From: a virus
IMG/VR virus record: IMGVR_UViG_3300047322_000763
Span: 1-24,810 of that record
Strand: one strand, 5' to 3'
DNA length: 24,810 nt
The notes below the pieces were generated by a model. That model was not told the origin of the DNA, ran no database searches, and was given only the letters and a program-made list of their open reading frames with translations. Both the position numbers and the translations under genes were made by a program. Positions 6,077-24,810 of the stretch are shown here, piece after piece (the first letter of the stretch is position 1; each line of letters begins with the position of its first letter).

Positions 6077-6222
6077 ACCACACGCTGTTTCACGACTGCA
6101 CCTGCGACCGGTGCGAGCGGGCCAAGCGCTCGTCGCTGTACAAGGGCTCACTGCTTGCCCTTTCGGCGTGGGCGGTGTTCCTCGGCGCCCTGTGGGCCAT
6201 GGGGCGTTGGTGGTGGCCATGA
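6073..6222 (+). CDS. Tiny membrane protein with N-terminal Cys cluster (49 aa)
   Basis: ATG at 6073 overlaps the resolvase stop. The peptide starts MNHTLFHDCTCDRCERAKRS, with H-x2-C-x-C-x2-C, then a single hydrophobic helix (LLALSAWAVFLGALWAMG, about 27-44) and ends GRWWWP. By the positive-inside rule the Arg/Lys-rich N-terminal side is cytoplasmic, so the Cys cluster would face the cytoplasm. It is unrecognised; a metal-binding membrane peptide is the best description. Confidence 0.6.
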   Translation: MNHTLFHDCTCDRCERAKRSSLYKGSLLALSAWAVFLGALWAMGRWWWP

Positions 6223-6458
6223 GGCCGGACATCACGACAATGCGAATCGTTGCGATGGCAGCCGGGGAATCAATCACTGGCGGCGCGACCGCGCCCGAGA
6301 CCGTGTGGCTGTGCGACCGGATCGATGCGCTTGAGGCTGCGCTTCGTACTACGGCCCAGCGTAACCACCTGCGCACCCATGACTTCGCGACCAACTACGA
6401 CACCTGTCACGACGAAGTTTGCGCCAAGGCCCACGCCGCACTGAAGGCTGAGCCATGA
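6219..6458 (+). CDS. Unknown small protein (79 aa)
   Basis: Unrecognised. ATG at 6219 overlaps the upstream TGA, and the end overlaps the next ATG. The central part is helical (ETVWLCDRIDALEAALRTTA) and could form a short coiled coil. The C-terminal HDFATNYDTCHDEVCAKAHA carries His and Cys residues (C-H-x3-C-x3-H) that might bind a metal. It is part of a chain of five consecutive tiny genes, all coupled by short overlaps. Confidence 0.58.
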   Translation: MRPDITTMRIVAMAAGESITGGATAPETVWLCDRIDALEAALRTTAQRNHLRTHDFATNYDTCHDEVCAKAHAALKAEP

Positions 6459-6869: not shown

Positions 6870-7069
6870 AGCGCGACTGGACCGCAACGGCACCATGGTG
6901 CGAGCACTCGGCATGGAGCTGGGAGTTTCGCGACTGCGGAGTTCCGTGGTGTCGTGAGTGCGAGAACTACACAGACGGCTGGCGGCGGAATATTCGTCGC
7001 CCGTCGACGTGGTTCTTCGTCGCGTTCTTTCTCGTGCTGCTCGCGGCCAACATTTGGTGGCAACGATGA
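6866..7069 (+). CDS. Small Cys-rich protein with C-terminal TM helix (67 aa)
   Basis: ATG at 6866 overlaps the upstream TGA. The first 40 residues are aromatic with several Cys (WCEHSAWSWEFRDCG, then PWCRECENYTDGW), including C-x2-C. A hydrophobic helix (WFFVAFFLVLLAANIWW) follows near the C-terminus and a final Gln-Arg. The layout (metal knuckle then tail anchor) is the mirror of the 49-aa peptide at 6073-6222. It overlaps the methyltransferase gene by four bases. Unrecognised. Confidence 0.6.
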   Translation: MKRDWTATAPWCEHSAWSWEFRDCGVPWCRECENYTDGWRRNIRRPSTWFFVAFFLVLLAANIWWQR

Positions 7070-7623
7070 CCCACGACCTGTTCCCCGAGGTGCAGCCACA
7101 CAACGGCAACCCCGACGAGAACCAGCGCTTCACCATTCCGCGCGCCCTGGACTGGTGCCGCCGCATGGCCGGCGTGCGCGAATTCGACCTCGACGTGGCC
7201 GCTTGCGAGGAGTCGCATCACGCGCACCTTTGGTACGGCAAGGCCGAGAATGGGCTGCGCATGCCGTGGTTCGGCGACGTGTTCTGCAATCCGCCGTGGG
7301 ACGACATCGGGCCGTGGGTCGAGAAGGCATGGCGGGAGATGCGCTGGCCAATCGGAGCGGCGCCGGGGCCACAACAAGTCAACAGCGTCGCGATGCTGCT
7401 GCCAGGGGACAGGACACACCGCCGCTGGTGGAGGGACTTCGTCGAGCCACACCGCGACGGCCGCAACTTCGACGGGCCACCGCTGCGCGAGGCCGCAGTG
7501 CAACTGTCGACGCACTTCGCGCCGGAGCGCTTCCCGTACGGAGGGCCTGGCAATCCCGCTGGCATCGGCACGGCCGAGCCGAACTTCACCTCGTGCCTGC
7601 TCCTGTGGAGACGCAATGCCTGA
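7066..7623 (+). CDS. dam: Phage Dam-like N6-adenine DNA methyltransferase (185 aa)
   Basis: Transfers a methyl group from S-adenosylmethionine to adenine in DNA. The catalytic motif IV NPPW lies at 75-78 (VFCNPPWDDIGPW). The FDLDVAA segment at 40-46 is the SAM-pocket acidic loop, typical of the small circularly permuted phage Dam family (N-6-adenine-methyltransferase, about 150-190 aa). SVAMLLPG near 108 is the following strand. It begins with ATG at 7066 in an ATGA overlap. Phage Dam enzymes protect phage DNA from restriction or mark it for packaging. The target site cannot be read from sequence. Confidence 0.84.
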   Translation: MTHDLFPEVQPHNGNPDENQRFTIPRALDWCRRMAGVREFDLDVAACEESHHAHLWYGKAENGLRMPWFGDVFCNPPWDDIGPWVEKAWREMRWPIGAAPGPQQVNSVAMLLPGDRTHRRWWRDFVEPHRDGRNFDGPPLREAAVQLSTHFAPERFPYGGPGNPAGIGTAEPNFTSCLLLWRRNA

Positions 7624-7807
7624 GCCCCTGAAACCCAGCGCTCGTCTCGCCAAGGCACGGGCGGTACGCGAGGCACTCGAGGCCAACCCACAGGCGACGC
7701 TCGAGGAGCTGCGACGCACGGCGAAGGCCGGCCAGTCGCTGGTCATCCTGGTGCGCGAGCGGTGGAGAGCAGAACGGGGCTTGATATTTTCGCAGGCACC
7801 CGCATAG
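7616..7807 (+). CDS. Unknown small helical protein (63 aa)
   Basis: ATG at 7616, with GGAG eight bases before, overlaps the end of the methyltransferase gene by eight bases. The protein is basic and helical: SARLAKARAVREALEANPQA, then TLEELRRTAKAGQSLVILVR, then ERWRAERGL. The LEELRRTAKAGQSLVILVRE stretch reads like a helix-turn-helix (helix, glycine turn, recognition helix), so DNA binding is plausible. I do not recognise a family. Confidence 0.6.
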   Translation: MPEPLKPSARLAKARAVREALEANPQATLEELRRTAKAGQSLVILVRERWRAERGLIFSQAPA

Positions 7808-7843
7808 AAATCCGTGCGTCCCTTGGACCGGAGGACGCCTGAC

Positions 7844-8158
7844 TTGATTGCGTGCAGCGTTGATGGCTGTGGCAAAGAAGCGAAGCGCGGTGGCCTGTGT
7901 TGGACTCACGTGCAGCGCCGCACCAGACGTCGCCCTCTGAGTTCAGACGTACAGGAGCGGGGCGACAATCCACTCCAGCGCATGGTGCGAGCGGCCCTGA
8001 AGTTCGCCGAAGACACCGAGCGCCCGTCAGAGGGGAACCCGCGCGGCGAGTATGGGCGCGCCCTCCACACCTTTGAGCAGGCGCTGTACCGGTACAAGCT
8101 CACCTCGCGCGGCCGACTGCGTTTCACCAAGCGGGACGGCACGCCACTTAAGGACTGA
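7844..8158 (+). CDS. Zinc-finger protein resembling HNH-endonuclease N-domains (104 aa)
   Basis: I place the start at TTG 7844, because CGGAGG at 7829-7834 is well spaced from it and the protein then begins M-I-A-C; GTG at 7814 is an alternative that adds ten residues. Residues 4-24 carry C-x4-C with GLCWTHVQR (C-x2-H), the knuckle often found at the start of phage HNH or HTH proteins. A basic run RRTRRR follows, then a helical C-terminal region. No HNH catalytic core is present, so it is either a stand-alone DNA-binding knuckle or a relic. It is the last gene before the packaging genes. Confidence 0.6.
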   Translation: MIACSVDGCGKEAKRGGLCWTHVQRRTRRRPLSSDVQERGDNPLQRMVRAALKFAEDTERPSEGNPRGEYGRALHTFEQALYRYKLTSRGRLRFTKRDGTPLKD

Positions 8159-18554: not shown

Positions 18555-19023
18555 AGCCCAGGTGGTCCTGGCCACGCGCGAGCACGCCGAGGCGCTCGCC
18601 AGGACCATGCGCGCCGAGGACGTGGCCGAGTGCCATGCCGGTGGCCTCGCGCCCCTCGCGGCGTTGGTGCAGTCGGTCGATACCTCCGACGTCGCGTACG
18701 CAGCTCTGGTTGATGGCCAAGTCGGTGCGATGTTCGGTGTCGGCCAGCTCGCCGGTGTCGATGAGCCGGTCGGCCACGTGTGGTTCCTGACCGGCGCTTC
18801 CTTCGCCCGACACCCGAGGCCATTCGTGCGCATCGCGCGCTGGGTCGTGGCCCACATGCTCCAGCTATATCCGGTGCTCTTCAACATCATTGATTTTCGC
18901 TACACGGCCGCGGTGCGGTGGGCGAAATGGCTGGGCTTCGACGTCGGCGAGCCCATGCCGTTCGGGCCGGCTGGAGTTCCGTTCGTTTCCGCCCGACTGA
19001 GGAGAGACGCATGGGCTCGATGA
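18544..19023 (+). CDS. Internal virion protein, T7 gp13-like with GNAT-like fold (159 aa)
   Basis: TTG at 18544 is the best start: GAGGGAG lies seven bases upstream inside the nozzle gene, and the protein then begins MASEAQVVLATREHAEALAR. The pattern resembles the phage gp13-like/DUF2833 family with an acetyltransferase-like fold (VGHVWFLTGASFARHPRPFV, then LFNIIDFRYTAAVRWAKWLG and FDVGEPMPFGPAGVPFVSAR). In T7 gp13 (138 aa) is needed for particle assembly or ejection. Whether this homologue keeps acetyl-transfer chemistry is unknown. Confidence 0.78.
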   Translation: MASEAQVVLATREHAEALARTMRAEDVAECHAGGLAPLAALVQSVDTSDVAYAALVDGQVGAMFGVGQLAGVDEPVGHVWFLTGASFARHPRPFVRIARWVVAHMLQLYPVLFNIIDFRYTAAVRWAKWLGFDVGEPMPFGPAGVPFVSARLRRDAWAR

Positions 19024-19469
19024 TTGGTGGCATTGGAACCATCTACAGCGGCATCAAGGGCGCCACCGACGCGCAGGCGAGCGCTCAGGCCGAATGGAAC
19101 GCCAACGACGCCCTGGCTCAGTACGGGGCGCGCAACGCCACGCTGAAAGGCACGGCGGACGCCAGCAACGCGCGAGCCCTTGGCGCTCAAGTCCAGGCCG
19201 GACAGAAGGTCGCCTACACCAACAGCGGCGTGGACTCGACCGTCGGCACGGCGGCGGCCGTGCAAGCCGACACTGCTGGCCAGTCTGAACTCGACGCGCA
19301 GACGGCGAAGAACAACGCAGCGCGACAGGCCTGGGGCTTCAAGGTTCAGCAAGAGCAGGCGGCGCAGACGTACCGGGCAAAGGTTGCCTCCGCGCAGAAC
19401 CAAGGCACGGCCAGCGTGCTCAGCGGCGCAGGGCAACTCATTGGCGGCGCGGGGGGAATGTTCGGATGA
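19011..19469 (+). CDS. Internal virion protein, T7 gp14-like (152 aa)
   Basis: A core protein ejected with the DNA and placed in the outer membrane in T7. ATG at 19011 with GGAG near 19000 starts it inside the previous gene. The N-terminus MIGGIGTIYSGIKGATDAQA and the C-terminus LSGAGQLIGGAGGMFG are glycine-rich hydrophobic ends framing a helical Ala/Gln/Asn-rich core (NNAARQAWGFKVQQEQAAQT). T7 gp14 is 196 aa. The next gene starts in an ATGA overlap. The T7-like gene order supports the assignment. Confidence 0.76.
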   Translation: MGSMIGGIGTIYSGIKGATDAQASAQAEWNANDALAQYGARNATLKGTADASNARALGAQVQAGQKVAYTNSGVDSTVGTAAAVQADTAGQSELDAQTAKNNAARQAWGFKVQQEQAAQTYRAKVASAQNQGTASVLSGAGQLIGGAGGMFG

Positions 19470-21511
19470 AAGTCCCCATCTATCAGCGACAGGTTGAGCA
19501 AAGCGCCGGTGGCGTGCCCGGCCACGTTGGCGGCATGCCAGACAGCAATGCGGAAGCCATCGGGCGCGGCCTCACTGTGGTGGGTCAGGGGTTTGACTCG
19601 GCCATCTCGCAGCAACGGAAAGACGACGCCGAGTATCAGCGCCAGCTAGACGAGGCGCGCCACAAGGCCGACGTCACCGCTGCGCGCAATGCCCTGACGC
19701 AGTGGCAGGACTACGAAACGACGGTGCTGCACGGGAGCGGGTCACAACAGCAAGCCGTTCCAGGCGTGGCCGGCAACGATGGCGCCAGCGCGCCTCCGTC
19801 CGACGCCGATATCTCGGCAGCGGGCGAGAAAACCGTGACGGTGTTGACGCCTGAGCCTGGGGCCTTTGCCGAGTCGCTCAAGACACCAGACGCGCCGCAG
19901 GGTCCAGGGTTCCTGCAGATGCGCGGCATGGACGCAGTCGGCTCAAGCACTAACGCCTACGATGCACTCAAGAAGCGGCAACAGGATTTGCTCAATGGCC
20001 TGACCAACGACAAACAGCGCGAGCTTTTCCAGCAGGAGAGCGACGGGCTGCTCGTTAGCTCACGCCGCCGCATCGAGGACCATGCCGCGCAGCAAATCGG
20101 GGTCGGTCAAGAGGACTCCCTCAAGTCGGCTCGGGCCACAGCGCTGAACACCATCGCCAATAACTACACCGACCCCAGCGTGGTGCAGCAGCAGGTGTCG
20201 AGCGTCATCGGTCCAGCGCACGCCCTGCTCGCCGGTCGCCCCGCCGCAGAGAAGCAGTTCGAAGCCGAAATGATGCAGGACGTCGCCTCGACTCGGCTCA
20301 ACCAGTACATCGCGAATAAGGACTGGAAGGGCGCGCAGACGCTCTACTCGCAAGTCAAGGACCAGCTCGGAATCAAGGCCGACCATTTCGAGAACGTCAT
20401 CAACATCGAACGCGACAGGCAACAGGGTGACGCCGCAGCGCTGCAGGTTGTGAACAGCGCCCGCAAGCCGAACGGCTTCATTGATGAGGCCAAGGCCGTC
20501 GCGACGTTTGAGGCAATTCCCAAGGACACGCGAAGCGATGCCGCCAGGGTGGCTTTTGACCACTTCCTGACGCTCGAGAAAGCGCACGAGACGTCGGTGA
20601 AGTCCGACAACTTCGACGCAGCGCTGTCGGCATACCTGCAAAACAAGAACATCAACGACGTGCCCCCGGCCACCAAGGCGTGGATGATTGGCGACGGCAA
20701 GACGCCAGGCAATGACCCGAAGGCATGGCAGTCACTGTTGCAGATCTCCAATGCGGACGGGGCGCACGCTCGCGGAGCTGGTCCGTCTGATGATCAGCGC
20801 CGCGCGATGACGCAGTTCGAGGTGGATCTGCACGACCACCCCGACAAGTACGCCACGATGAGCGAGCCGGAGTTCCACGCCACCGTCTGGCCCATGCTCT
20901 CGAAGAACGACCGCGAACGTGCTGGCGCTCTCTTCGCCACGGCGCACGGTCAGGCCGCCAAGCCGGGAACCATCACGCCGGAAGAGAACAACATGCTGCT
21001 CCAGAAGGGGCGCGACGCCGGCCTCTTTGGACCGAAGGGCAAGGACCCGGCGCAGTGGGACGGAGAAGCGGCCGACTTCTACTACAAGGCGACCGAGGTT
21101 CTGCGCGAGCAGGCGACGGCGTACCGCCGCGCCAAGGGCGAGGCGCCACCCTTCAAGCTCATGGAGGAGTGGACCAACAACCTCCTCGTCAAGGGCAAGA
21201 TTCCGGGCTCCGGCTACTTCGGCACCAACTTCGGCGCAGGCGGCAAGACACGGCTCGAGGCGCTGACGAAAGGCCCGGACACCAAGTTCGAGCCCGAGTG
21301 GACCGACGAGCAGAAGTCCGAAGTGGTCAAGGGCATGCGCGCGCGCGGCATCGAGCCCACCGACCAGAAGATTGATTCCGCACTCCGGGCGGCCCACGGC
21401 TTCGCAGCGCCCCCTGTTCAGCAACCTGCAGCTTCAGCTACTTCGTCGAAAGACGTCTCGTCCGAGTGGGGTCTCGACTTGAGTCAGCCGACACCCGACT
21501 ACGGAGACTGA
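19466..21511 (+). CDS. Internal virion protein, T7 gp15-like position (681 aa)
   Basis: A long helical ejection protein of the inner core. It opens KVPIYQRQVEQSAGGVPGHV and is dominated by Gln/Ala/Glu/Lys-rich helices (e.g. FDSAISQQRKDDAEYQRQLD, then ARNALTQWQDYETTVLHGSG). Blocks such as ALKKRQQDLLNGLTNDKQRE and LFQQESDGLLVSSRRRIEDH are typical of podovirus internal proteins. T7 gp15 is 747 aa. No lysozyme or nuclease motif is recognised. It is coupled by ATGA to the gp14-like gene and followed at once by the giant protein gene. Confidence 0.72.
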   Translation: MKVPIYQRQVEQSAGGVPGHVGGMPDSNAEAIGRGLTVVGQGFDSAISQQRKDDAEYQRQLDEARHKADVTAARNALTQWQDYETTVLHGSGSQQQAVPGVAGNDGASAPPSDADISAAGEKTVTVLTPEPGAFAESLKTPDAPQGPGFLQMRGMDAVGSSTNAYDALKKRQQDLLNGLTNDKQRELFQQESDGLLVSSRRRIEDHAAQQIGVGQEDSLKSARATALNTIANNYTDPSVVQQQVSSVIGPAHALLAGRPAAEKQFEAEMMQDVASTRLNQYIANKDWKGAQTLYSQVKDQLGIKADHFENVINIERDRQQGDAAALQVVNSARKPNGFIDEAKAVATFEAIPKDTRSDAARVAFDHFLTLEKAHETSVKSDNFDAALSAYLQNKNINDVPPATKAWMIGDGKTPGNDPKAWQSLLQISNADGAHARGAGPSDDQRRAMTQFEVDLHDHPDKYATMSEPEFHATVWPMLSKNDRERAGALFATAHGQAAKPGTITPEENNMLLQKGRDAGLFGPKGKDPAQWDGEAADFYYKATEVLREQATAYRRAKGEAPPFKLMEEWTNNLLVKGKIPGSGYFGTNFGAGGKTRLEALTKGPDTKFEPEWTDEQKSEVVKGMRARGIEPTDQKIDSALRAAHGFAAPPVQQPAASATSSKDVSSEWGLDLSQPTPDYGD

Positions 21512-21512
21512 C

Positions 21513-24500
21513 GTGCCCGACCTCTCAGAAGTGCTGGATCAGATGAAGGCCGCCGAGGCCGCGCCCGCCGCGCCCGACGACCCCTCCAGCCCTCCCAAGT
21601 CCAAGTTCGAACTCGCCTACAAGGGCGACGACGGCAAGCTCGACGTTCAGCCGGATTCCGGCCAGCCCGCGCCCGACCCAGGGACGGCAGTCCCCGAGAA
21701 GCTCACGAAGTCTGTGAGCCCGGTCGATGACGCGCTCGACCAGATGAAGGCCGAGGAAGACCGCCTTCGAGATCTCGGTGCAAAGCAACTCCAGTGGCGC
21801 GTCGAGAACGACAAGGCGGACCCGAATCGCCGAGCCGAGGTGCTTCGGTACTCCGGCGCATCGGGCCTGGCCCCCGACTTCGTCGAGCAGAACCTCGACG
21901 CGGTGAAGGCCAGGGTCGACGCGGTGGCTACGAAGGATGACTGGGCGCGCGTCTCGTACCGGCAGCCCGGCCTCGTGAAGATGCTGCAGGCCACGCCCGA
22001 GGCGCTGCCGCTGGTGAAAGATGACTCGGCGAACCTTGCTGGCGTCGAGTGGGCCCTGGGCAGCTGGGGTCCGAATGGCTTCCAGGGCGGTGCCCCCTTC
22101 CACGCAATCTGGGACGCCATCAACGACCAGCGCACTGTCGCACGCCAGTTCAGCGAGGCGATCGATGGCCCTGGAAGTGGACCCGAGAATCAATCGGCCA
22201 TCCGCGCCTACGAGGAGCAGTATTCGAACAAGGACTACGGCGACAACGGGCCGATCAGCACGGCAGTGATTGCCACGGCCCGAATGCTCCCCTACTTGGC
22301 AATGGACCTCACGGCACGCGCCGGAGGTGGAGCGGTTGGGGCTCTCGTCGCTGGCGGTGAGGCCGGCGCCGCTGGTGTCGAGACCGGACCGGGTGCGGCG
22401 GTTGCGGCCACCGGTGGAGCGGCTTTCGGCGCTGGTGTCGGTCAGTTCGTCTCTGCCGGCCTGTTCAACTATTACGAGGCGCTGGGCCCTAGCTACTGGA
22501 AGCTGATCAACCTCAAGGACACGAACGGGCAGCCGCTCGACCCGGAGGTGGCACAGGCGCTCGCACAGGGCAGCGCGGTAATCACTGGCGGCCTGATGAG
22601 TGGCCTCACCGGAAAGCTCGGAGGATTTCTCACCAAGCCGCTCATGGCCCGCCTTGGCGCCACGACGGTCGAGAAGGCGCTCACCGACGCAAGCGTGGCC
22701 AGCATCATCAAGCGAGGCGGCCTCGAGTTCGGCAAGCACTGGGTCACCGGTGCAACCATCATGGGCGCCGTCGCTGGGGTGAATCAGGCGACGGTGAACG
22801 CGGCCGAAGACATCTCCGGCCAGCCGTTCGACGAACAGGGCTCGGTCACCAAGGCCGCAGCGGACGGCTTCATCGGCGGCCTGCGCGACATGTGGCTGAT
22901 TTCGGCCATCGGCCCAGGGCGCGAGCTGGTGAAGGACATCGGCCGTTACCGCTCCAGCGCCGAGGGTGCCGCTCGGCTCGAGGCGATGACCGAAAGCGCG
23001 AACGCCTCCAAGCTTCTCGAGCGCAGCCCGGAACTCTTCCAAAAGGCCGTCGAGCAGATGAAGACCGAGAAGGGCACGGTCAAGAACGTCTACGTGCCAG
23101 TGGAAGAGTGGACGCGCTACTGGCAGGACAAGAAGCTGGACCCGGGAGAGGTGGCGGCAAAGGTCATCGGCGACGGTGGCAAGGCGTTCTCTGAGGCGAT
23201 GGGCACAAAGGGTGACCTCGCCATCCCCGCCGAGAAGTATCTCAAGAGCATCGCCAAGACCGAGCACGCTGCAGGCCTGGCGATGGACGCGAAGCTCTTC
23301 CCGGATGACCTCACGCCGCGGCAATTCACCGAGGAGCGCAAGGCGCAAGAGAAGCGGCTCGAGGAAGAGGCGAACCGGCGAGCGCCAGAGCTGGAGCAGG
23401 GCAAGACCGAGGTGCGGGACTTCATCCGCGAGCAGGCGGTCAAGGCGGGAATCGGTCGCGACGTGGCGAAACAGAACGCGGACCTCGTCGCGGAGTACGT
23501 CGGCACGATGGCGCTCCGTCTTGGCGTCTCGGTGCCCGAGGCCGCGACGCTTGGCAATCTCGGCGGCCTGCGGGTGCTGGGGCCGAAGGGTCAGACCGTG
23601 GCCGCCGCCGCGGTGCAACACTTCCAGGGCGCATTGCGGCCCACAGCCGAACGGTTCCTCGAGTCACGCCTCGCTACCATGTCGCCTGAGGCACGCGCGC
23701 AGGAAACCTTCATCGATTCGACCACCGGCCTGCGCGAGCGTCAGGTCATCGACCAAGGGCCAGTCCCAGAAGGCAACCAGGTCGCGGTCATCACCTCGCC
23801 AGACGTGAAGGGCATCAACGACCATCCGACAGCGGGTGGTCACAACGTCGCCAACGACATGATGCGGGCCGTTGCCACTGGCGTCGGTTCTGAGCATCCA
23901 GAGGCGGCACGAGGCGGCACGAACTTCGTGCTTCACGTGAAGGACCAGGCGGATCTCGAACGCACCCTAGAACGGGCGCGCAAGGCGACCGGGAATGAGA
24001 ACCTCAATCTCATGGGCGCAGTGGGTGAGAATGCCGACAAGGCCTTCGCTGCGTTGGATGCGAAGGTGGAGCAGATGCGCAAGGAGAAGGCGCTACCCGA
24101 GCGCGGTGGCCTCAACCCGAAGCTCGATGTCGCTGGGCTCAAGTTCGGGCCCGAGCGCGCCGCTGGAACGGTGCCACCCGAGCTGGTGCATGAAATTGGA
24201 GGCCTGTCGGATCAGCAGTACGCCCAGCGCGTCTACGTCGACAAGGTGAAGGTCGGCGGCAGGGACGTGCCCACTGGCCTGCTCGCAAAGAAGGCGTGGG
24301 AGGCAATTCCTCGGAAAGCCAACGCCGCGATGCTGGACATGCGCGGGCTGAAGGACGCCAACAACAAGTACGGCAAGGAGACTGGCAACGGGATGTTGCT
24401 CGCCTTCGGTGACCTCATCGCGCACCTTGGCGGCTCAAGTTTCGACGCCACACATCTGTCTGGCGACGAGTACGCACTCCAGCACGACGACCCTGTGGAG

Positions 24501-24810
24501 CTGCAGCGGTTCGTTAACCGCTTGAAAGAACGCGTCGGATATCTGGGCCTGAAGCACTTCGACGCAGCAACTGGCAAGACAGAACCGATCTCCGTAGACT
24601 TTCGGCATGGCATCGGAACCGACCTCGACACCGCAGACCGAGCCCTCAACACCAAAAAGCGAGCGGAAGTCGGGGCTGGTGATCGAGGACAAGAGAACCG
24701 GCAAGGTGATTTGGCACCCGGACCAGAGCCTCGAAGAGAACCGAACAGCCCTCAAGCAGTGGAACGTGGAGCAGGACAAGGCCGAGGAGCAACGCGGCAG
24801 TTCCAGCGAG
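21513..24810 (+). CDS. Giant ejected virion protein, gp16 position, with two tandem GGDEF-like domains (partial, at least 1099 aa)
   Basis: This starts with GTG at 21513, one base after the previous TGA; the frame is open to the window end. T7's last core gene (gp16, 1318 aa) is in this position. The N-terminal ~260 residues are acidic, with a repeated LDQMKA. Residues about 265-330 and 400-450 are Ala/Gly-rich and hydrophobic (GAGVGQFVSAGLFNYYEALG, TGATIMGAVAGVNQATVNAA), which would suit membrane passage. Residues 735-850 read as a degenerate GGDEF domain: STTGL at 736-740, SPDVKGIND ending at 770, and GGTNF at 801-805 instead of GGDEF. Residues ~920-1045 are a second, more intact one: PTGL, LDMRGLKDANNKYG with D942 and N950, and SGDEY at 983-987, then ADRAL at 1041-1045. 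A transglycosylase motif like that of T7 gp16 is not seen in the visible part. From about 24660 the frame no longer looks coding; see the separate entry. Confidence 0.75.
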   Translation, partial: MPDLSEVLDQMKAAEAAPAAPDDPSSPPKSKFELAYKGDDGKLDVQPDSGQPAPDPGTAVPEKLTKSVSPVDDALDQMKAEEDRLRDLGAKQLQWRVENDKADPNRRAEVLRYSGASGLAPDFVEQNLDAVKARVDAVATKDDWARVSYRQPGLVKMLQATPEALPLVKDDSANLAGVEWALGSWGPNGFQGGAPFHAIWDAINDQRTVARQFSEAIDGPGSGPENQSAIRAYEEQYSNKDYGDNGPISTAVIATARMLPYLAMDLTARAGGGAVGALVAGGEAGAAGVETGPGAAVAATGGAAFGAGVGQFVSAGLFNYYEALGPSYWKLINLKDTNGQPLDPEVAQALAQGSAVITGGLMSGLTGKLGGFLTKPLMARLGATTVEKALTDASVASIIKRGGLEFGKHWVTGATIMGAVAGVNQATVNAAEDISGQPFDEQGSVTKAAADGFIGGLRDMWLISAIGPGRELVKDIGRYRSSAEGAARLEAMTESANASKLLERSPELFQKAVEQMKTEKGTVKNVYVPVEEWTRYWQDKKLDPGEVAAKVIGDGGKAFSEAMGTKGDLAIPAEKYLKSIAKTEHAAGLAMDAKLFPDDLTPRQFTEERKAQEKRLEEEANRRAPELEQGKTEVRDFIREQAVKAGIGRDVAKQNADLVAEYVGTMALRLGVSVPEAATLGNLGGLRVLGPKGQTVAAAAVQHFQGALRPTAERFLESRLATMSPEARAQETFIDSTTGLRERQVIDQGPVPEGNQVAVITSPDVKGINDHPTAGGHNVANDMMRAVATGVGSEHPEAARGGTNFVLHVKDQADLERTLERARKATGNENLNLMGAVGENADKAFAALDAKVEQMRKEKALPERGGLNPKLDVAGLKFGPERAAGTVPPELVHEIGGLSDQQYAQRVYVDKVKVGGRDVPTGLLAKKAWEAIPRKANAAMLDMRGLKDANNKYGKETGNGMLLAFGDLIAHLGGSSFDATHLSGDEYALQHDDPVELQRFVNRLKERVGYLGLKHFDAATGKTEPISVDFRHGIGTDLDTADRALNTKKRAEVGAGDRGQENRQGDLAPGPEPRREPNSPQAVERGAGQGRGATRQFQR
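23901..23920 (+). repeat. Perfect tandem duplication of a 10-bp word at the first GGDEF-like loop
   Basis: GAGGCGGCAC occurs twice in direct contact. The duplication spans the codons EAARGGT at the signature loop of the first domain. The unit is not a multiple of three, yet the reading frame is coherent on both sides. It could be a recent small duplication or chance in GC-rich sequence. Confidence 0.7.
24654..24810 (+). other. Apparent +1 change of coding frame after an A5 tract (24654-24658)
   Basis: Up to AAC ACC AAA AAG at 24648-24659 the main frame looks coding. Beyond it, the main frame has poor third positions and odd composition (EVGAGDRGQENRQGDLAPG). The +1 frame instead reads SERKSGLVIEDKRTGKVIWH and then PDQSLEENRTALKQWNVEQD, with G/C-rich third positions, and is also open to the end. 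ATG at 24607 and GTG at 24679 exist in that frame, but neither has a good ribosome-binding site. Three readings are possible: programmed +1 frameshift, a single-A indel (natural or sequencing), or a next gene that overlaps deeply. Confidence 0.55.

Follow-up and report, generated by a model that had tools for sequence, protein, structure and literature searches.

The last gene of the window, by which we mean the whole 24,810-nucleotide stretch of viral DNA analysed here (positions 1-24,810 of IMG/VR record IMGVR_UViG_3300047322_000763), encodes a giant protein in which two GGDEF-like domains lie in tandem (residues ~718-1064; residue numbers refer throughout to this giant open reading frame, ORF), and this module occupies the variable effector slot of a polyvalent protein of the Bbp10 type. 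The fold, the tandem arrangement, the slot, the family and the conservation were all established by computation. Most likely the module is an injected synthase or binder of cyclic dinucleotides, and we assign a probability of roughly 0.6 to an injected synthase that has retained the synthetic chemistry.

Structure and sequence of the tandem module

An initial annotation of the sequence had proposed two tandem GGDEF-like domains, the first non-catalytic and the second retaining the metal site and most nucleotide-binding residues, and had named structure prediction among its checks. These proposals were borne out, and every named motif is found at the quoted residues of the ORF: D735-S-T-T-G-L and G801-G-T-N-F805 in domain 1, and T921-G-L-L, D942, K947, N950, G954-K-E-T-G-N959, S983-G-D-E-Y987 and A1041-D-R-A-L1045 in domain 2. 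The same pair occurs in L002, an IMG/VR locus with a complete gene for a full-length homologue of 2564 amino acids (52% identity over the common part; 65% in the alignment of the domain pair). The AlphaFold2 model of residues 705-1062 (358 residues), predicted from a 42-row alignment, reached a mean predicted local distance difference test score (pLDDT) of 92.9 and a predicted template modelling score (pTM) of 0.87 and displayed the two domains in tandem; prediction from a two-sequence alignment gave a pLDDT of 35, and a fold search on that model was meaningless. The high confidence of domain 1 is the more telling because only five rows cover it. Comparison with the PDB revealed the palm-like GGDEF fold in domain 2 (residues 198-348 of the model), which matched many solved GGDEF domains at Z scores of 14-16, among them 6hbz_B (Z 15.3, root mean square deviation (rmsd) 1.8 Å over 134 residues) and PleD 2v0n_A (Z 14.8, rmsd 2.2 over 134 residues). 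As read from the joint model, domain 1 follows the GGDEF core in its order of elements, and its C-terminal sheet is reduced. Among the best viral structure matches were the GGDEF protein of Bordetella phage CN1 and an unnamed 1143-residue viral fragment.

At the sequence level, domain 2 scored 16.6 bits (E 0.007) against Pfam GGDEF (PF00990), under the curated cut-off of 23.8, which is a detection threshold and not a structural feature; the search on the window record alone returned 19.2 bits (E 1.2e-5). A two-sequence profile (window and L002) gave 11 matches among PDB sequences at E up to 10 (best 5e-5), all of them GGDEF or diguanylate cyclase proteins or unnamed GGDEF chains, and was aligned by hhalign with a small GGDEF profile at E 2e-14 (98%). 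Domain 1 had no direct Pfam or PDB sequence match; its alignment by hhalign with a GGDEF profile gave E 7e-4 (27%) when domain 2 was left out of the profile and E 1.6e-6 (90%) when it was included. The hidden Markov model (HMM) of the compact GGDEF family described below, built from domain 2-type copies only and without any first copy, scored 36.2 bits on domain 1 as a segment and 30.6 bits within the whole protein, compared with 10.8 bits for the best of 5000 shuffles and less than 5 bits for each of 15 related giants lacking GGDEF. An HMM of bacterial GGDEFs only was blind to domain 1 in the window and L002 and detected the first copies of three other giants (L031, L032 and L034), so the identity of the window's domain 1 rests on the chain of family members and the model. 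Patterns of domain 1 gave no match in a genome scan. Judged by its residues, namely the missing metal Asp and the GGTNF loop, domain 1 is a pseudo-GGDEF and predicted to be non-catalytic.

Domain 2 carries the metal Asp (D942), the Asn (N950), the acidic pair (D985-E986) and the Lys (K1049) of active diguanylate cyclases, together with K947. The guanine-binding Asp (PleD D344) is replaced by N959, and for this reason domain 2 is not filed as a diguanylate cyclase; it also departs from the Hypr pattern of Ser or Thr at this position, the residue being Asn in both the window and L002. In PleD, this position sets guanine selectivity, and Ser or Thr there lets Hypr enzymes use adenosine triphosphate (PMC9140294); no tested precedent for Asn was found. 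A domain with the SGDEF signature can produce cyclic dimeric guanosine monophosphate (c-di-GMP) in vivo (PMC8079147).

A compact GGDEF family mostly in giant phage proteins

Scans with single proteins found only L002, and a mixed GGDEF alignment opened the family's further IMG/VR loci; TIN4_36 was left out of the GGDEF set as its translation lacks the motif. The GGDEF domain lies in an ORF of at least 1000 amino acids at 46 of the 55 IMG/VR loci, several pairs of which are near-copies of one phage. Five giants of the family pass the Pfam GGDEF cut-off (26-51 bits), four of them carrying other domains (InPase with GNAT, methyltransferase, LPD22), and tblastn of the domain pair in phages returned weak matches only, several of which are annotated phage GGDEF proteins. 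Across the 42 aligned rows, which share 18-35% identity with the window (L002 excepted), D942, N950, G958, D985 and E986 are invariant, the K947 position has 40 Lys and 2 Arg, the base-selectivity and K1049 positions vary as given in Table 1, and the RxxD I-site is not present. A tree with 61 bacterial GGDEFs placed 58 phage-type domains on one side of a single branch (support 100/99), with the bootstrap not fully settled and with rows L098-L102, taken from genome assemblies, assigned to the phage group beforehand by similarity. On this sequence evidence, domain 2 is a member of a compact GGDEF family that is found mostly in giant phage proteins and is separate from the bacterial GGDEFs, and an active site that stays invariant among very divergent phages speaks for an enzymatic role of the family as a whole. 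Three members (L071, L086 and L089) have Thr at the Hypr selectivity position, and a specificity of the cyclic GMP-AMP type is possible for these giant proteins.

Two copies were found only in the window, L002, L031/L032 (with the fragment L180) and L034. In the tree, a first-copy clade (99/98) and a second-copy clade (100/98) each unite the window, L002 and L032, which dates this duplication to before the three diverged; the two L034 copies pair with each other (100/98), which points to an independent duplication. Given the long branches of the tree, this evidence on the age of the tandem is good, not final. In the older tandem, the metal Asp has disappeared from the first copy (ITSPDVK, HISLRALK), as has the acidic loop (GGTNF, GGD-F), and the second copy retains both. 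The substrate segment of domain 2 reads GKETGN for GHxxGD in the window and L002, and GSNALGD, with ANN for ND, in L031/L032; single-copy relatives are mostly canonical there. L034 (residues 1081-1547) has two fully canonical compact copies, matched by TIGR00254 in two stretches at 91.8 bits (cut-off 37.4).

A putative effector slot in a Bbp10-type scaffold

By tblastn and BLASTP, the giant falls into a family of podovirus giant proteins that includes BPP-1 Bbp10, Cobetia phage Carin1 gp32 and members from Pseudomonas phages AF, HU1 and UFJF_PfDIW6, Xanthomonas phage CP2 and Caulobacter and Vibrio phages. Its N-terminal scaffold is common to Carin1 gp32, UFJF and BPP-1 Bbp10; in L002, the GGDEF pair is followed by a linker, an HExxH segment and a long C-terminal part, a C-terminal scaffold common to Carin1 and others. 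The combination that marks polyvalent proteins, LPD-type and unrelated effector domains within a giant multi-domain chain, is present as LPD22, the GGDEF pair and the HExxH C-scaffold of L002, and by these sequence features the giant is a polyvalent protein of the Bbp10/Carin1-gp32 type. Many records of BPP-1 bbp10 and its homologues name a crystallin-motif protein, a lysin or a lysis protein, whereas the product is a polyvalent-type giant with HExxH; the names look carried over.

The N-scaffold (up to residue ~676 of the window's giant) and the C-scaffold (from HExxH) are common to the relatives, and the middle differs. This slot ranges from ~40 residues (MZH0603) to more than 1200 (DC33, ctQRb9), and its Pfam domains comprise the RNase PBECR5 (Carin1, Ab9), ART-PolyVal (DC33, ctQRb9, ctEw122), LPD23 (AF) and GNAT (1.185.O and Ab9; weakly in CP2). 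The slot of the window and L002 is filled by the GGDEF pair, and six further giants (L067, L074, L181, L068, L070 and L032) have a compact GGDEF in the same place, just before the C-scaffold. Occupation by different enzymes would be expected of an exchangeable effector position, and we infer that the slot is one; GGDEF shares this interchangeable place with ART, GNAT and RNase effectors, a point in favour of an effector role. The record of phage DC33 itself (PQ492659.1, Limnohabitans phage) has a taxonomy line reading Inoviridae against a 39-kb genome with a podovirus-type giant gene, and is probably misfiled.

Gene neighbourhood and embedded reading frames

The coordinates of the features are collected in Table 1. 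The initial annotation had placed the giant gene at the position of T7 gp16, and the position holds, since the gene comes after gp14-like and lysozyme-type genes; a homology to gp16 found no support, as no gp16 family was among the Pfam or PHROG matches of the giant, which belongs with Bbp10 and Carin1 gp32. In family relatives, too, the giant gene is preceded by a lysozyme-type gene and, in annotated cases, by internal virion genes. Among six tested contigs with other GGDEF giants, three have genes immediately upstream that match families for internal virion proteins (L059, L070) or DNA ejection (L047).

Table 1 Coordinates of the giant gene, its domains and residues, and neighbouring genes in the window
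Feature	Position	Strand	Remarks
gp14-like internal virion protein	18918..19469	+	phrog_418, E 1.2e-15; Pfam T7_gp14 weak
Lysozyme/gp15-position protein, gene preceding the giant	19466..21511	+	phrog_10475 and phrog_1044, endolysin
Giant polyvalent-type ORF	21513..24809	+	GTG start; 1099 amino acids visible; open at contig end
LPD22, large polyvalent protein associated domain, residues 96-185	21798..22067	+	Pfam PF18834, 38.4 bits (cut-off 28.6)
GGDEF-like domain 1, residues 718-843	23664..24041	+	Degenerate: the metal-Asp strand is replaced by ITSPDVK and the loop reads GGTNF; C-terminal part shortened
GGTNF, domain 1 counterpart of the GGDEF motif, residues 801-805	23913..23927	+	Sequence
GGDEF-like domain 2, residues 890-1064	24180..24704	+	Compact, without I-site; profile, hhalign and structure evidence
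D942 (PleD D327, metal) to N950 (PleD N335, guanine), with K947 (PleD K332)	24336..24362	+	Conservation in 42 rows
N959, base-selectivity position (PleD D344)	24387..24389	+	D 33, N 6, T 3 of 42 rows
SGDEY signature loop, residues 983-987	24459..24473	+	D985 and E986 in 42/42 rows
Overlapping +1-frame ORF, start within the end of domain 2	24607..24810	+	Kept in L002
K1049 (PleD K442)	24657..24659	+	K in 41/42 rows

At the end of domain 2, codon-position GC content switches to the +1 frame in the window and L002 alike, and an ORF in that frame, which begins ATGGCATCGGAA, is shared by both phages at ~70% identity (6004-6198 in L002). A reading-frame error, suggested by the GC switch, was ruled out because L002 runs on in frame 0 to the metallopeptidase and the +1-frame ORF is common to both phages. 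In L002, a second +1-frame ORF (6202-6429) adjoins the first, nested in the linker region of the giant; it has two hydrophobic stretches and a basic C-terminal end, giving it a holin-like look, and no significant family match was obtained for it. No convincing equivalent of the +1-frame ORF was seen at the same place in other GGDEF giants. The initial annotation had missed this embedded frame, the effector slot with its variable content, the compact GGDEF family at large and the 2017 report cited below.

Function of the module and alternative explanations

Under the preferred reading, that of an injected cyclic-dinucleotide synthase, the giant would be packaged in the virion and enter the cell alongside the DNA at the start of infection, where it may be cleaved by its own HExxH metallopeptidase. 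Domain 2 would bind guanosine triphosphate (GTP), possibly another nucleoside triphosphate, inside the host and would form a cyclic dinucleotide in partnership with another copy of itself or with domain 1. With no I-site, the usual product feedback would be missing, and this fits a flooding or jamming of host nucleotide signalling by an effector better than homeostatic regulation.

Several points weigh against this reading. The window's ORF ends at the contig end and the metallopeptidase part is known from L002 only, and the only arguments for packaging of the giant are synteny and the literature on polyvalent proteins. The window's domain 2 differs from the family consensus at four substrate-segment positions (R944, N951, K955 and N959), which makes the sequence case for an enzyme weaker in this phage than in the family, and it has no clear equivalent of PleD R446; because of these departures, domain 2 may bind without turnover. 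The module in this lineage could instead be a non-catalytic binder of nucleotides or cyclic dinucleotides (a sensor, a sponge or a dimerisation device), the window, L002 and perhaps L032 having lost the ancestral cyclase activity. Pseudo-GGDEF domains are familiar as binders and sensors, domain 1 lacks the metal Asp and the acidic loop, and the altered substrate segments of the window, L002 and L031/L032 stand against the mostly canonical ones of single-copy relatives; yet the window and L002 keep the metal and G-D-E residues, K947, N950 and K1049, which is beyond the need of binding alone, and we regard loss of catalysis as possible but considerably less probable than its retention.

It is quite unlikely that the two domains have a purely structural task in the virion or the ejection apparatus, unconnected with nucleotides: they do sit in a virion-type gene, and the module is absent or replaced in relatives that keep the scaffold, but the residues invariant in 42 rows are those of the active site and not just the core, and a slot that otherwise holds enzymes would hardly see a structural part swapped for an RNase, ART or GNAT domain. 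An asymmetric single-chain synthase, in which pseudo-domain 1 faces active domain 2 like the degenerate and active Palm pair of Cas10 and the product is perhaps not c-di-GMP, would accord with the degenerate-then-active order kept since before the split of the window and L032, with the fixed domain arrangement suggested by the pTM and with the altered base-selectivity residue. In Foldseek, both domains align along the Cas10/Csm chains 8s9x_C and 6ifn_A and along GTP cyclohydrolase III (2qv6); these two-domain alignments are a lead only, being poorly superposed (query TM 0.23-0.31, rmsd 12-17), and the asymmetric arrangement appears very improbable as the explanation of the module. Taken further, an injected single-chain asymmetric cyclase, with a pseudo and an active half, no feedback and altered base selectivity, might make a non-canonical cyclic dinucleotide in the first minutes of infection and so jam or hijack nucleotide-based signalling or defence of the host, a scenario that we consider doubtful.

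Relation to known systems

GGDEF domains in polyvalent proteins were already reported in 2017, for example in the Acetonema longum prophage protein WP_004096050.1, and invading elements were proposed to act on nucleotide signalling once delivered, using cyclic nucleotides against host responses (Iyer et al., PMC5512222). The window's protein resembles these in placing GGDEF within a giant multi-domain phage protein with a metallopeptidase and other enzymes; compared without alignment, it differs from the published example in its pseudo-plus-active-like tandem, its Bbp10-type podovirus scaffold and a compact GGDEF without I-site and with a changed selectivity residue. With BPP-1 Bbp10 and Carin1 gp32 it shares homologous N- and C-terminal scaffolds and the gene order after the lysozyme gene, whereas the Carin1 slot holds PBECR5 and that of Bbp10 is short and without GGDEF. 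The GGDEF-like proteins of Yuavirus and Vojvodinavirus siphophages (NEU2024, Churro, LK3) fall in the same compact clade (L041), with SGDEF and no I-site, but are separate proteins of 156 amino acids encoded next to an antirestriction gene in a region of non-structural genes; in L003/L004 (near 6995-7971), the compact GGDEF gene of Yuavirus is immediately upstream of that gene. LK3 lysogens overproduce biofilm (PMC8471281). The fold, the metal Asp, the Asn and Lys positions and the G-D-E loop of the window's protein are those of PleD and DgcB, from which it differs in the missing I-site, in showing no receiver or sensor domain and in having Asn for D344. It shares a changed D344 position with the Hypr GGDEF enzymes GacA and Bd0367, although the residue is Asn and not Ser or Thr, Thr being found in the three relatives named above. 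On a plasmid of Streptomyces sp. WAC00288 (L027, 347-2037), a GGDEF protein is encoded two genes after a Pycsar effector family protein.

A full-text literature search, incomplete in coverage, found no paper linking GGDEF to virions or ejection. The new elements are the pseudo-plus-active tandem and its age, the compact family with its residues (58 domain copies) and the location in an exchangeable slot. If the giant is injected and active, a second-messenger enzyme would be delivered with the genome instead of being expressed later, and would act before any transcription. The compact family also offers about 40 natural variants, with Asp, Asn or Thr at the selectivity position and two independent tandem duplications, for testing product and target.

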